The position numbers and the translations under genes were made by a program. This document shows positions 16,073 to 23,545 of a stretch of DNA of 64,000 nucleotides, piece after piece; position 1 is the stretch's first letter, and each line of letters opens with the position of its first letter. This DNA comes from Pleurocapsaceae cyanobacterium CSU_1_1 (lineage in GTDB: Bacteria > Cyanobacteriota > Cyanobacteriia > Cyanobacteriales > Xenococcaceae). The stretch is from positions 1-64,000 of the forward strand of contig JAAUOU010000009.1 in NCBI GenBank assembly GCA_012034765.1, written 5' to 3'. A model generated the notes under the pieces. The model saw nothing but the letters and a program-made list of their open reading frames with translations, had not been told where the DNA came from and made no database searches.

Positions 16073-16847
16073 ATCGAAAACTATACTAAAAAATATGGTG
16101 ATTTTTATCGTTTAAAAGTTTCTAATAATAATTCAGTTATTGTAGTAGGCGATCGCTATTAGAAAAGAAATCCCATCAAGATATCCTCAGTTTATTATTA
16201 TTAGCCAGGGATGAACAAGGCAAAGGGATGACGGATGAAGAACTACACGATGAATTAATTACTCTATTATTTGCGGGGCATGAAACAACTGCTTCAGCGT
16301 TAAGCTGGCTATTCTACTGGATTCATTATGCTCCAGAAGTGGAGGCTAAACTACGCTCGGAATTAGATTTTGGGGAGAAGGGATTGAAGGTATTAATTAC
16401 CAAAAAGTTAATAATTTGTCTTATTTAGACGCTGTAGTTTCCGAAACCTTACGAATTTATCCAGTTATTGCAGGTGTTTTTGCGCGTATTCCTACTCAAG
16501 CAATTTCTATTTTAGGATACAAACTCCAACATGATGACTGGTTGTCTATCTCAATTTATGCACTTCACCATCGAGAAGACTTGTATCCCGATGCCAAGCA
16601 ATTCAAGCCAGAAAGGTTTTTAGAGAGAACATACTCGCCGAATGAATATATTCCGTTTGGAGGAGGAAATCGTCGCTGTATAGGTTCGGCTTTAGCATTG
16701 TTAGAAATGAAATTAGTTACGGTTACCGTATTATCTCGATTCCAACTAGCATTAACAAATAAATGTCCTTTATATCCAGTACGCCGAGGTATCACTCTTG
16801 CTCCTCCTGCTTCTTTGAGGATGGTAATTAAAAATAAGCTGTCGTAG
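16073..16847 (+). pseudogene. Decayed cytochrome P450
   Basis: Three pieces remain. The first, from 16073, reads YTKKYGDFYRLKVSNNN and ends at TAG near 16160, matching the P450 N-terminal sheet. The second, in another frame, reads HQDILSLLLLARDE and AGHETTASALSWLFYWIHYA, the I-helix with its oxygen-binding AGxxT. The third, one frame off again, has SETLRIYP (ExxR), FKPERFLE and FGGGNRRCIGSALALLEMKL, the heme-Cys loop. Roughly 150 residues between pieces one and two are gone. Between two and three a single base is missing near the T4-G4 run at 16368-16375. The large deletion makes this a true remnant. Confidence 0.8.
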
Positions 16848-18328: not shown

Positions 18329-19207
18329 ATGTCTACTCGTATCAAAACTATAGAATTATTTCTAGCTTTGGGTTTCGCCACTGCTGTTGGTACACAAGTT
18401 TTACCTACTAATGCCCATGAATCAGATGAAATGATTGAATCTCAAGCCACCACAAATTATTCGTTGATAGCCCAAGGTGGCGAAGCTGGTGGTGAAGGCG
18501 GTGGCGAAGGCGGTGGCGAAGGCGGTGGTGAAGGCGGTGGTGAAGGCGGTGGCGAAGCTGGAGGGATGGTTGATACGGGAAACCCCAATGTAGACTACAT
18601 GACAGTTCTCGGTTTAATGAAAGGTCATTTAAATGCTGCTCAAGAACTGCTCGCGCTGAAAAATTATGAACAAGCTGAACCTCATATTGGACATCCAGTT
18701 GAAGAACTATATGGCGAGATAGCAACTGTTCTGCCACAAAAAGGAGTCAAAGATTTTAAACCCACCTTAACTCAACTCCACGATTTAATTCAATCTGCGC
18801 CAGACTCCCCAGAAGTACAGACTTTACTCGATGAATCTTTAGCCTCTATTGATGGAGCGATCGCCGTTATTCCCAAAGAACAAATTAACTCCCCTGAATT
18901 TGTACTCGATGTCATGGTGGAGATGCTCAAAAATGCTGCTGCTGAATACAAAGCAGCGATCGTCAATAATCAATTTGTAGAAGTAGTTGAATATCAAGAT
19001 TCCAAGGGATTTGTCGACTATGCCGATCAGCTATATCAAACCGTAGCAGAACAAAAAAGCAAAGCAGATCCAGAAGGACACAAAACCATTACCGACAGCT
19101 TGGCTGAATTAAAAACAGCTTGGCCATCTATTGAACCACCAAAAGCACCGATTAAACAACCTGGTGAAATTCAGGGCTTAGTTTCCCAAATTGAATTTAG
19201 TAAGTAG
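18329..19207 (+). CDS. Secreted protein with Gly-Glu repeat and helical domain, unknown function
   Basis: This 292-residue protein begins with a signal peptide (hydrophobic ELFLALGFATAVGTQVL, then an Asn-Ala-His site). Residues about 50-80 are a repeat of EGGG units encoded by five 12-bp DNA copies. The rest is a four-helix-like domain with DYMTVLGLMKGHLNAAQELL and EQAEPHIGHPVEELYGEI, conserved histidines that could bind metal. The neighbouring multicopper-oxidase fragment supports a periplasmic metal-related role. I do not recognise a named family. Start ATG 18329. Confidence 0.7.
   Translation: MSTRIKTIELFLALGFATAVGTQVLPTNAHESDEMIESQATTNYSLIAQGGEAGGEGGGEGGGEGGGEGGGEGGGEAGGMVDTGNPNVDYMTVLGLMKGHLNAAQELLALKNYEQAEPHIGHPVEELYGEIATVLPQKGVKDFKPTLTQLHDLIQSAPDSPEVQTLLDESLASIDGAIAVIPKEQINSPEFVLDVMVEMLKNAAAEYKAAIVNNQFVEVVEYQDSKGFVDYADQLYQTVAEQKSKADPEGHKTITDSLAELKTAWPSIEPPKAPIKQPGEIQGLVSQIEFSK
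18497..18556 (+). repeat. Five tandem copies of a 12-bp unit encoding GGGE
   Basis: The unit is GGCGGTGGYGAA, with only C/T variation at one wobble position. It is flanked by related GAA-GCT-GGT codons. Such near-identical repeats expand and contract easily, so the Gly-Glu spacer length probably varies among strains. Confidence 0.85.
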
Positions 19208-20065: not shown

Positions 20066-23000
20066 CTAATTTGCACAGGCTGCACAACCTTCGCTGCTAT
20101 TTTCTTTAAAGTCATCTTTCTGCACAGTACGGACATAGTATACGGCTTTACAGCCTTCTTTCCATGCCATAATCAGGGTTTCAAAGATATCTTTGGCTTT
20201 AACTGCTCTTTCAGGTTCATCAGGGAAGTACACGCCTTGATTGAGGTTGAACAGTAATTCCATAGAAATACCTGTATCAATCCACTGCTGCATTACTGCC
20301 ACGGCTTTAACGACAATTTTTTGGTCGAGGCTTTTATTTTCGCGGTAGAACCAAAAACAGTCTTCAATAAACGGTGGAGCGATGGGTACAGTACCTTTTG
20401 CCCACTTGTCGTAGAAAAACTTGCTGTAGGCGGGGAGAATACTAGCGGTACATCCCTGTACTAAAGACGAAGAAGTATTCGGTGCGATCGCTGTAATATG
20501 GGAGTTACGAATACCATAGGTTTGAACATCCTGAGATAGCTGTTGCCAACGTTCTGGATTTTCGGTTAAGGGTAAGATCTCTGATAAAGACTTAGAACCG
20601 AGTAATTTACCTTTACTCCATTCACTACCAGGAAAAGCAGCATAAGCGCCACGCTCTTTAGCTAATTCCATGGAGGCAAAAGTACACCAATATGCCACTT
20701 CTTCAAATAGATGACTGATTTGTGCAAGACTTTGATAGTTTAAATGACGTTTTGCCAACCAGTCGGCTAATCCCATGCAACCTACCCCAATCGTGCGATA
20801 TTTATCGTTATGGGTTTTACTGTCTTTAAAGGGAGGCTGAGTAATCTCAATCGTATTATCCAAGATGCGCACAGCTAATTTAGCCGCATCGGCTATTTCT
20901 GCCGACTCAAGATTAGCTAGGTTGAGGGACACTAGATTGCAATTGTGAACAATAATTCCTTCAGCAATGAAATGATGACCATTGGGAATATTTAAATCGT
21001 AAACCTGTGCTTCGCCGATATATTCTATCGATTTAACCTCTGAAGTTCTTCTGTAGGTTTGCTTTTCGCTTTTTCTAGAACGCTTGACTCTCTCGTATTT
21101 ACTGGTTTTATCGGGGCAGAGATCAAAGCCAATAACTTCCATAAAACGTTCTGTTGCCCAACCTGAAATATTTAAATTACCCTGGGAACGTTTTCGCTCA
21201 CTAGAATAATAATAGGCAACTGTTGAAGGAATACCAAAACAATCAAGACATTCTCGGACATCGTTTAACAACTCTAGACTGGCACTGGATAATTGAATGA
21301 CGGGGTAGTTTCTGGAGTTGGAAGTCTCATGAACACATCCATCAGCACTAAATAAACCACTAAGGATACTTGCCAAGCGATCGGCTGGTAAAGATTTTAT
21401 TAACTTACCCAGCTTTTTCGTTGCACCTTTACCTGATGTTAATCCATATTCTTGAGTAAGGTATTCGCGAAAAGATTGTTTATTAGTCACCCACGATCTA
21501 ACACCAGTCCTCTTGTCAATCCGAATAGATGGTACTCCCTTGGTAGTGGCACTGAAATGATAATCTGTAGCTTCGTGTATTTTTGCCATTTCTGTCACTA
21601 CTTTTTCCAGAGCCAAAGTTTCATCAGCACCAAAACACACCCCAATGGATTTATCTAAAATCCAGCCATCTCCAATCAACCAACCAATCGCAGCATCACT
21701 GAAATTGCGAGAAACGCTATAAAATTCTGGTAAATACCATTCAGGAACTTGAATTTCTAATCGATCTCCTACCTCAATTTCATCTAAAGTCAACCATTGA
21801 CGATAACGGTTTTGCGAACCATGTCTAACTAAAAATTTATGATCTCCCGTGGCTTCGACCGTACGTCCATTTTTCAGAGTAAGACGATAGACATCTTTAA
21901 CACCATTGTCGATGAGTTTAGCTGTTTCAAAATGATAGACAGGAGTAAAATCTTGATCGGATTTAAAAGGGACTAATACTCTTTCTCCGTCGCATTCTTC
22001 GATCGCCTGCCAACCTTTTTCCGTCATCACTTTTGTTCCTGCTGCCAGACAACAATGTGCCTCTACTCCAGGTTTGACATTCGAGAAGCTTTCGCAACAT
22101 AAATTAACCCCAGGAATGTATCCTTCGTGCTTATTGGGGTTTGTCCGATTGATCGTGTCTTTAAAAGCGAGATAGGGCATTCCTGTCTCAACCTGGCTTC
22201 GCATGATGTGTTTAAACAACTCGCGGGCATCTACCTGCTTGTAGAGCTTAATTTTCTTGTCTAATTCTGCTTCAATGGTTTCATAGGCAGCTTCAAAACT
22301 ATTTCCCCATTGTTCTGCTAGTTCAATTCCTAGAGTTTCCTTAACTTCATAAGGATCTACCATTGTCCATTTTGCTTTGGCTTCCACTCGGCGCATAAAT
22401 TCATCGACAATTACCAGTTGAGGAAAGACATCATAGGCTTTACGACGGCGATCGCCATTTTCCGCCTGCATCTCTAAAAATTCAGGAACATCTAAATGCC
22501 AGATATCTAAACCAACGGTAACTGCACCAGCTCTACGCCCGCCCTGATTAACCGCGATCGCCGTATCGTTAAGTAGCTTAATCCAAGGAATCACCCCCCC
22601 CGAAGCATTATCCTTACCCATTACCCAACTGCCAGTAGCGCGGATGCGACTCACATTTACCCCCACACCACCACCATTCTTGGAAATTCTGGCTGCATTG
22701 GTAATCTCGGCAAAAATACTCTCTAAATTATCATCCATGCCGATAATAAAGCAGCTACTCAAAGAGCCGTTAGGAATTCTCAAGTTCGCTAAAATAGGCG
22801 TTGCTAAGGAGATTTTACGCTGGGCGATCGCTTCATAAAATGCTCTGGCGACAGTCAATCTAACTTCAGGCTGCTCATTGGAAGCCAACAACAAAGCACA
22901 GGTAAGATAAGCTTCTTGCGGTAATTCATCGGTCAACAAATACCGTTTGGTTAACAATACCGCCCCAGCATAATCATAATCTCGATCCCAATCGGGGTTA

Positions 23001-23545
23001 ATCCAAGTTCCTGCCTCAGATAACTCTTCAGTCGAATATTGTAGAATTTGGCGCTCGTAACGTTTTGCAGCTAATTGAAACTTTACTGCTGTGGCATAAT
23101 TCCCATAGCCAAATCCTCGACTTACCTGAGTGTCTTTCCATAAATTCCAGATATGCAGTCTTCCTGCCACATAACGCCAGGCTGGTTCATCGGGACTGCA
23201 CATCCCCAACGCACAGTCAATTAAATTATCTTGAATATCTCTAGTAGTAACACCATTCCGCAATCGAGTAGTTAAACCTGCCTCTAAAGTAATGGAGTTA
23301 ACGTTTTGCCCTGCACAAGCCCATTCAACTACCGCTCGAATTTTAGTTATATCCAGAACAGTAGGTGAGCCATCTCGTCTTACTACTAAAATAGGCGCAG
23401 AAGTATTGTCCAATGTTTTGTCAAGTATCTGAGGTAATGTTTGTGTGGCGACTTGACTAGAAGGGCAGGGTTTGCTTTCATCTACTTCTACTTCTAAATT
23501 AGCGATTGAAGTTGAGTTGCTGGTTAACGGCGAGGTAGGCTGCAT
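20066..23545 (-). CDS. nrdA: Class I ribonucleoside-diphosphate reductase alpha subunit with intein
   Basis: NrdA makes deoxyribonucleotides from ribonucleoside diphosphates with NrdB, which is not in this window. The host protein without intein is 789 residues. An ATP-cone-like N-terminus (ILVVRRDGSPTVLDITKIRA) covers residues about 51-120. Redox Cys265 lies in GSLSSCFIIGM, and the active-site trio Asn481-Cys483-Glu485 in NLCCESFSN. The second redox cysteine starts CNLVSLNLAN right after the intein, at residue 869. The phosphate-binding PNTSSSLVQGCTASILP block and a C-terminal CAAC pair, which relays electrons from thioredoxin, are intact. All catalytic residues that I can place are present. 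Confidence 0.92.
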   Translation of the reverse strand: MQPTSPLTSNSTSIANLEVEVDESKPCPSSQVATQTLPQILDKTLDNTSAPILVVRRDGSPTVLDITKIRAVVEWACAGQNVNSITLEAGLTTRLRNGVTTRDIQDNLIDCALGMCSPDEPAWRYVAGRLHIWNLWKDTQVSRGFGYGNYATAVKFQLAAKRYERQILQYSTEELSEAGTWINPDWDRDYDYAGAVLLTKRYLLTDELPQEAYLTCALLLASNEQPEVRLTVARAFYEAIAQRKISLATPILANLRIPNGSLSSCFIIGMDDNLESIFAEITNAARISKNGGGVGVNVSRIRATGSWVMGKDNASGGVIPWIKLLNDTAIAVNQGGRRAGAVTVGLDIWHLDVPEFLEMQAENGDRRRKAYDVFPQLVIVDEFMRRVEAKAKWTMVDPYEVKETLGIELAEQWGNSFEAAYETIEAELDKKIKLYKQVDARELFKHIMRSQVETGMPYLAFKDTINRTNPNKHEGYIPGVNLCCESFSNVKPGVEAHCCLAAGTKVMTEKGWQAIEECDGERVLVPFKSDQDFTPVYHFETAKLIDNGVKDVYRLTLKNGRTVEATGDHKFLVRHGSQNRYRQWLTLDEIEVGDRLEIQVPEWYLPEFYSVSRNFSDAAIGWLIGDGWILDKSIGVCFGADETLALEKVVTEMAKIHEATDYHFSATTKGVPSIRIDKRTGVRSWVTNKQSFREYLTQEYGLTSGKGATKKLGKLIKSLPADRLASILSGLFSADGCVHETSNSRNYPVIQLSSASLELLNDVRECLDCFGIPSTVAYYYSSERKRSQGNLNISGWATERFMEVIGFDLCPDKTSKYERVKRSRKSEKQTYRRTSEVKSIEYIGEAQVYDLNIPNGHHFIAEGIIVHNCNLVSLNLANLESAEIADAAKLAVRILDNTIEITQPPFKDSKTHNDKYRTIGVGCMGLADWLAKRHLNYQSLAQISHLFEEVAYWCTFASMELAKERGAYAAFPGSEWSKGKLLGSKSLSEILPLTENPERWQQLSQDVQTYGIRNSHITAIAPNTSSSLVQGCTASILPAYSKFFYDKWAKGTVPIAPPFIEDCFWFYRENKSLDQKIVVKAVAVMQQWIDTGISMELLFNLNQGVYFPDEPERAVKAKDIFETLIMAWKEGCKAVYYVRTVQKDDFKENSSEGCAACAN
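20942..22051 (-). mobile_element. Intein with LAGLIDADG homing endonuclease in NrdA
   Basis: Residues 499-868 (370 aa) of the NrdA reading frame are an intein. It starts with Cys in CLAAGTKVMTEKGWQAIEE and has a block B GRTVEATGDHKFLV with the TxxH-type His. Two dodecapeptide motifs, AIGWLIGDGWIL and LSGLFSADGCV, mark a LAGLIDADG endonuclease. It ends with YDLNIPNGHHFIAEGIIVHN, the His-Asn pair, followed by Cys+1. All splicing residues are in place, so it should splice itself out and may still be able to home. Confidence 0.92.

Follow-up and report, generated by a model that had tools for sequence, protein, structure and literature searches.

Why does the only ribonucleotide reductase (RNR) large-subunit gene found in the Pleurocapsaceae cyanobacterium CSU_1_1 carry an intein directly before a catalytic cysteine, how did the intein get there, and does it give the cell control over its deoxyribonucleotide supply? 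We addressed these questions in a window of 64,000 nucleotides (positions 1 to 64,000 of contig JAAUOU010000009.1), in which nrdA occupies positions 20066..23545; nrdA, its intein and all their parts given below lie on the minus strand.

Location of the intein in NrdA

The nrdA open reading frame codes for 1159 amino acids, intein included, and was identified as a class I RNR large subunit: it scored 578 bits with TIGR02506 (NrdE_NrdA; cut-off 341), and Pfam located the ATP-cone, the all-alpha domain (Ribonuc_red_lgN) and the barrel domain (lgC), the latter flanking the intein on both sides. Catalytic residues were assigned in a MAFFT alignment of the window NrdA with E. coli K-12 NrdA and relatives, based on the roles that we take the E. 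coli residues to have. C483 (22097..22099) aligned with the radical cysteine C439, C265 (22751..22753) with the redox partner cysteine C225 and C869 (20939..20941) with the redox cysteine C462; C1154-x-x-C1157 (20075..20086) corresponded to the C-terminal cysteines C754 and C759, and Y1136/Y1137 to Y730/Y731.

The intein comprises 370 amino acids (residues 499-868, 20942..22051) and ends directly before C869, which is both the +1 splicing nucleophile and the redox cysteine; the first-pass annotation had equated this residue with E. coli C462, and the alignment agrees. Fifteen residues lie between C483 and the start of the intein, the upper end of the 13-15 given earlier, and the insert is thus located downstream of the radical cysteine and immediately upstream of the redox cysteine. 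An assembly artefact or a pseudogene was ruled out, the frame being open across 1159 codons and the checked catalytic residues being present.

The assembly (95.88% complete) yielded no second RNR large-subunit gene. Both matches of the RNR barrel family lie in nrdA, so there is no sign of a backup RNR that could render splicing dispensable, and NrdB is represented by one match in the genome. Since nrdA is the sole RNR large-subunit gene found, splicing should be essential for deoxyribonucleotide supply, i.e. the cell should need it to make deoxyribonucleotides. For the same reason, one such gene in a 95.9%-complete assembly, imprecise loss of the intein would be lethal, as had been proposed.

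Two further open reading frames of the window were noted by eye: one of 292 amino acids (18329-19207) with a signal-like start followed by a glycine-glutamate repeat (GGEGGGEGGG...), and one of 143 amino acids (16416-16847) that has a cytochrome P450-like C-terminal heme motif and looks like a fragment.

Splicing and endonuclease motifs of the intein

Pfam detected both functional parts of the insert, with 62.2 bits for Intein_splicing (PF14890, cut-off 35.8) and 51.5 bits for LAGLIDADG_3 (PF14528, cut-off 22.5). The N-terminal splicing nucleophile Cys1 (C499, 22049..22051) is invariant in an alignment of 12 rows and opens the sequence CLAAGTKV, which we take to be block A. What we assign as block B contains TGDH (TxxH, 21839..21850), with T and H invariant, and the intein ends in IIVHN/C (the slash marks its end), the penultimate His and terminal Asn (H867-N868, 20942..20947) being invariant as H379 and N380 of the alignment. 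The class 1 residue set, C499, TGDH, N868 and the +1 residue C869, is therefore complete. The first LAGLIDADG motif, AIGWLIGDGWI (our block C, 21659..21691), has an invariant G-D-G and forms helix 127-138 of a structural model; the second, ILSGLFSADGCV (21332..21367), which contains our block E, LSGLFSADGCV, falls under PF14528 and forms model helix 233-247. Both helices carry acidic residues, as read from the motifs and the model. The description of the insert as a full-length homing intein of 370 residues with two LAGLIDADG motifs and all splicing residues was borne out, with exact coordinates and both Pfam domains above their cut-offs.

The model, built with AlphaFold2 from the 12-sequence alignment (mean pLDDT 80.5), matched structures of inteins with homing endonucleases. 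PI-PfuI (1dq3) ranked first by Z score (27.1, with 332 residues aligned and an rmsd of 4.5), ahead of the TliVMA intein, and in the Foldseek ranking by E-value the TliVMA inteins came first and 1dq3 fourth (2.3e-15). HINT structures were also matched (1mi8, Z 19.5; 4o1r, Z 19.1), with the splicing domain split by the insert, as were I-DmoI and PI-SceI. PI-PfuI is the PfuRIR1-1 intein (excerpt of PMC7090010).

Motifs and fold match together indicate that nrdA very probably harbours a mobile passenger, namely a canonical class 1 cis-splicing intein in which a LAGLIDADG homing endonuclease is nested. Standard splicing consists of an N-S shift at the first cysteine (here C499), transfer to the +1 residue (C869), cyclisation of the terminal asparagine (N868) and an S-N shift. 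The precursor would splice by this Cys1/Asn370/Cys+1 route, yielding wild-type NrdA.

Three other genes of this genome also gave intein-domain matches (L001 on contig C75, L003/L005 on C85 and L004 on C192), and we read them by eye as RtcB-like, PurL (FGAM synthase) and GyrB. The GyrB insert seemingly lacks a starting Cys and contains a helix-turn-helix-like stretch.

Distribution of the intein and of empty sites

All 26 other genomes of the 27-genome family sample, comprising 12 congeners and 14 genomes from other genera, have an uninterrupted site. Among the 388 genomes of the order sample four gave an intein match with E<=1e-30, the own genome included; the other three (76, 70 and 57% identity) are all NrdA inteins at the same codon. 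The phylum sample (386 genomes) contained 24 with a match at E<=1e-10, none of which, the own genome aside, exceeded 41% identity, and no other genome of this sample had a class I NrdA intein at the C462-equivalent site.

Patterns made from peptides of the intein itself found no relative in genome_contigs or viral_contigs; these patterns were too narrow, as a junction pattern (intein end VHN or IHN joined to CNLxSLNL) later found bearers in genome_contigs: Crocosphaera sp. MO_192.B18 (L095), Rhizonema sp. PD38 (L097) and Rhizonema sp. PD37 (L101). The inteins of L095 and L101 are identical to those of two order-sample bearers, a result that also assigns the window to the cyanobacterial order of these named strains, and the NrdA junction lies at the same codon in L095, L097, L101 and L122. 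The window intein has, in all, allelic counterparts of 57-76% identity in one Crocosphaera MAG, in two MAGs of Rhizonema and in a further species, giving five distinct inteins in four genera at the codon before the C462 equivalent. The two pattern scans together returned 25 stretches. In 19 of them, read by eye, a long frame runs from an intein end into an RNR-like C-extein (3 NrdA, 16 other); four are chance matches in frames of 20-32 codons (L098, L099, L115, L118), and L100 and L105 fall outside the protein pattern. Known phages and plasmids were rejected as source of the intein for want of a close match: the top-ranked among the best 20 of 59 phage records reached 25.6% identity, and the better of two plasmid records 28.9%.

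Empty sites are also found close to the other bearers. The site is uninterrupted in eight of eight other genomes of the Crocosphaera genus and in five of six congeners of the bearer genome G527, the remaining one giving no match, and the five empty G527 congeners are 97-99% identical in the C-extein. This pattern bears on the possibility that the intein was present in nrdA of the cyanobacterial ancestor, was inherited vertically and was lost from nearly all lineages. Such a history would fit the comparison of the window with Rhizonema and Crocosphaera, where intein identity (70-76%) is about that of the exteins in the 100-amino-acid flanks (69-80%). However, many precise losses would be required to empty 12 of 12 congeners and 26 of 26 sampled family members, the five G527 congeners are empty despite their nearly identical C-exteins, and the local footprint in the window flank (next section) also opposes old inheritance, which we consider very unlikely.

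A second possibility is that the element is dead, i.e. splicing-competent with an inactive endonuclease and fixed in the strain. Homing inteins are expected to decay once fixed, which favours this reading, but the aspartates and the helices of the two LAGLIDADG motifs are retained (alignment and model), there is neither a stop nor a frameshift in the intein, and dN/dS of the endonuclease part is well below 1 in the sole pair close enough to measure, the two Rhizonema inteins (0.21, from 7 non-synonymous changes; their splicing part gives 0.23, from 6). Comparisons of the window intein with the others were set aside for this purpose because dS is saturated (about 1.5 or more). We regard a dead element as rather unlikely.

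The two Rhizonema inteins (L097:2614-3723 and L101:4982-6091) differ by a dS of 0.07, as compared to 0.186 in the preceding 400 codons (rough Fisher p 0.0005). The lower value hints at an exchange of the intein between the two strains.

Sequence changes around the insertion site

To describe the flanks we called a base window-specific if it differs from the two nearest congeners (L061 and L062), which holds for 65 of 1767 positions. Within 60 nucleotides of the site 19 of 120 nucleotides are window-specific, 3.4 being expected; 11 changes lie in the upstream half (22052..22111, 60 nt) and 8 in the downstream half (20882..20941, 60 nt) of a putative co-conversion tract. The rate is 5.7 times that elsewhere (Fisher p 1.4e-8, uncorrected and with the interval chosen at the site). 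The same count in 21 intein-less controls from the family gave 0.4- to 2.1-fold, and three of the 21 were somewhat enriched at the site as well (p 0.006, 0.009 and 0.035). When the centre was moved along the gene, as many or more changes as at the site were reached at 1 of 581 centres with a half-width of 15 nt, this one being the insertion site itself, at 20 of 571 with 30 nt, at 6 of 561 with 45 nt, all of these at most 9 nt from the site, and at 17 of 551 with 60 nt.

The two halves differ in their resemblance to other bearers. Upstream, 8 of the 11 window-specific bases agree with the Crocosphaera bearer and one with the empties, whereas more than 90 nt from the site 13 of 43 match the bearer and 24 the empties; tested against the rest of the gene, this upstream preference for Crocosphaera has a Fisher p of 0.007, bases matching neither being omitted. 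Downstream there is no bearer preference (2 of 8 bases as in Crocosphaera, 4 as in the empties), and the corresponding upstream contrast for Rhizonema (8 to 1 vs 19 to 11 elsewhere) is not significant (p 0.23). A bearer-specific flank excess was absent in both other bearers examined, G527 and the Crocosphaera genome G628. Crocosphaera itself is 65-72% identical to four intein-less congeners in the 60 nt upstream of the site and 93% identical to another; as this stretch differs among intein-less Crocosphaera congeners, it can vary without an intein. With a stricter polarisation just 20 positions differ from all 12 congeners, five of them at most 75 nt from the site, and the footprint hence rests mainly on the two nearest congeners.

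An excess of this kind is what co-conversion during homing should leave, and, together with the empty congeners, it suggests that the intein was probably gained recently by homing. The predicted endonuclease would recognise intein-less nrdA and cut it at the conserved codons around H-x-C-N-L, and repair of the break would copy the intein with some tens of flanking bases, generating a divergent tract. Judged by its motifs, the endonuclease probably does cut the empty site. The locus is thus a clean natural example of an intein that was probably acquired recently: the gene is essential and no second copy of it was found, twelve congeners have empty sites, other genera contain bearers, and the footprint can be measured. 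Its practical value lies in a testable homing site and in a host that should need splicing for DNA synthesis.

Proposed redox control of splicing

The first-pass annotation had also suggested that splicing might be tied to the redox state. According to this idea, oxidation of C499, C869, C498 or Cys20 blocks splicing and thereby links dNTP supply to the redox state. Cysteines at positions 1, 20, 139/140 and 239/240 are indeed common to all five inteins at the NrdA site (C139 and C239 in the window), and C20 lies between blocks A and B, like Cys48 of M. smegmatis DnaBi1 (excerpt of PMC6195587), where a disulfide of Cys48 with the catalytic Cys stops splicing. On the other hand, C20 is missing from the eight non-NrdA inteins (class II and viral) of the 12-row alignment, and the -1 Cys is an ordinary residue of the host enzyme: 77 distinct uninterrupted class I sites have C in 46, T in 15, S in 14 and V in 2 cases at this position, in a tally whose pattern itself required the +1 Cys, and three of the five bearers have Thr. 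A 2014 view, in the excerpt of PMC4031507, was that conditional splicing of physiological relevance had yet to be found; DnaBi1 was reported later (excerpt of PMC6195587). The suggestion is not supported, as the -1 Cys is the host's own and none of our results points to conditional splicing, and we consider a redox-conditional intein highly improbable.

Its specific form, a switch in which a Cys20-Cys1 disulfide (or C498/C499 or C499/C869) under oxidation would halt dNTP supply until re-reduction, is scarcely to be expected. If it were true, a photosynthetic cell in which no second RNR large subunit was found would pause its dNTP supply, and the significance of the intein would be greater, a claim that is unsupported at present.

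Inteins at catalytic cysteines of other RNRs

A catalytic +1 Cys is not peculiar to this intein, since class II and other RNR inteins also precede catalytic cysteines. The junction scan found inteins before CNLGSINL- or CNLASINL-like sequences in RNR genes of Fervidicola, Thermosediminibacter, Tepidanaerobacteraceae, a Woesearchaeota archaeon and viral contigs, among others; in the six genes checked (L104, L109, L111, L112, L116 and L117) the best match was a vitamin B12-dependent RNR model. Two cyanobacterial class II RNR genes (L151 in G191, L152 in G320) contain two inteins with a short stretch of extein between them, the first before the radical Cys (NP/CGE), the second before the redox Cys (FH/CNLSE) and ending in TGN/C. 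In other cyanobacterial NrdA genes (L082, L083, L084, L085, L088, L153) the radical cysteine is immediately preceded by a different intein, which ends in Gln (GILTGQ/C) where the window intein has Asn. In an RNR-like gene of G004 (L021) the sequence after the intein end, CFINSVQDNMDSI, looks by eye like the C225 region, which would make this the third catalytic cysteine to serve as +1 residue.

We extracted 27 RNR inteins with both ends placeable, and all of them precede a homologue of the redox Cys (13) or of the radical Cys (14). The set is not random, most redox-site members having come from a pattern that required this site, and it omits L096, L102, L103, L106, L108, L110, L113, L114, L021, the second inteins of L010 and L019 and the NrdA radical-site inteins (L082 and others). 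In a tree of this set, and hence of redox-site inteins and radical-site inteins other than those of NrdA, the 13 redox-site rows grouped with a support of 80/84, which is below the starred level and short of decisive. In BLAST the closest relatives of the window intein outside NrdA were class II redox-site inteins (27.6-31.0% identity, 122-137 bits), as compared to 80-104 bits for viral redox-site inteins and 64-100 bits for radical-site inteins.

The window intein is thus a known type of element at a recurrent, known type of site, and the redox-Cys site hosts inteins in class I as well as class II RNRs. The site is probably occupied repeatedly because it is highly conserved, supplies a native +1 Cys and permits no imprecise exit. 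A preference of inteins for conserved sites has been described (excerpt of PMC2814812), also including active sites (excerpt of PMC5784728).

The nrdA genes of four genomes of one genus (G002, G066, G207, G298) matched piecewise, with breaks near window residues 336-361 and stops inside; perhaps an intron rather than an intein is located there.

Comparison with known systems

The nearest counterparts are the inteins of Crocosphaera sp. MO_192.B18 (L095) and Rhizonema PD37 and PD38 (L101, L097), which share with the window intein the gene, the codon, the length of 370 amino acids, the motifs and 70-76% identity; the Rhizonema inteins differ in having Thr at position -1 instead of Cys. The class II NrdJ inteins of Fervidicola, Thermosediminibacter, Tepidanaerobacteraceae and Woesearchaeota have a homologous insertion point, and the four of five hosts that were checked match vitamin B12-dependent RNR models best, but these inteins are shorter (351-356 amino acids), lack Cys20 and have GAEG as second motif in four of five cases.

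The Pyrococcus-type class II RNR model NF006207/PRK08332 (NCBIfam, 1684 positions), which presumably carries the Pyrococcus inteins and for which we assume which intein sits at which site, aligns colinearly through the window intein (protein residues 294-1045 to model positions 701-1439, the best of two stretches). PI-PfuI (PfuRIR1-1), which we take to be an RNR intein, differs in its class II host enzyme and in the length of its structure (1dq3, 454 residues).

Like the window intein, the RIR1 alleles rir1-b, -g, -k, -l and -m are RNR inteins, rir1-g being listed for Halothece and Trichodesmium and rir1-l for Tepidanaerobacter (excerpt of PMC4071816). Introns and inteins have been described from RNR genes of phages and cyanobacteria (excerpts of PMC3653736 and PMC12702839), and among the papers listed in our literature searches no title or abstract opening mentions this NrdA intein.

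M. smegmatis DnaBi1 also splices in a Cys-dependent manner, but is a class 3 intein of the DnaB helicase with a measured disulfide (excerpt of PMC6195587); it is the precedent for the redox idea. The Aquifex aeolicus NrdB intein resembles the window intein in being a LAGLIDADG intein of an RNR gene, located between catalytic residues with a Cys at +1, and it spliced on heterologous expression; it differs in that it resides in the small subunit, where it splits the iron ligands and is reported to raise iron loading (excerpt of PMC8772380).
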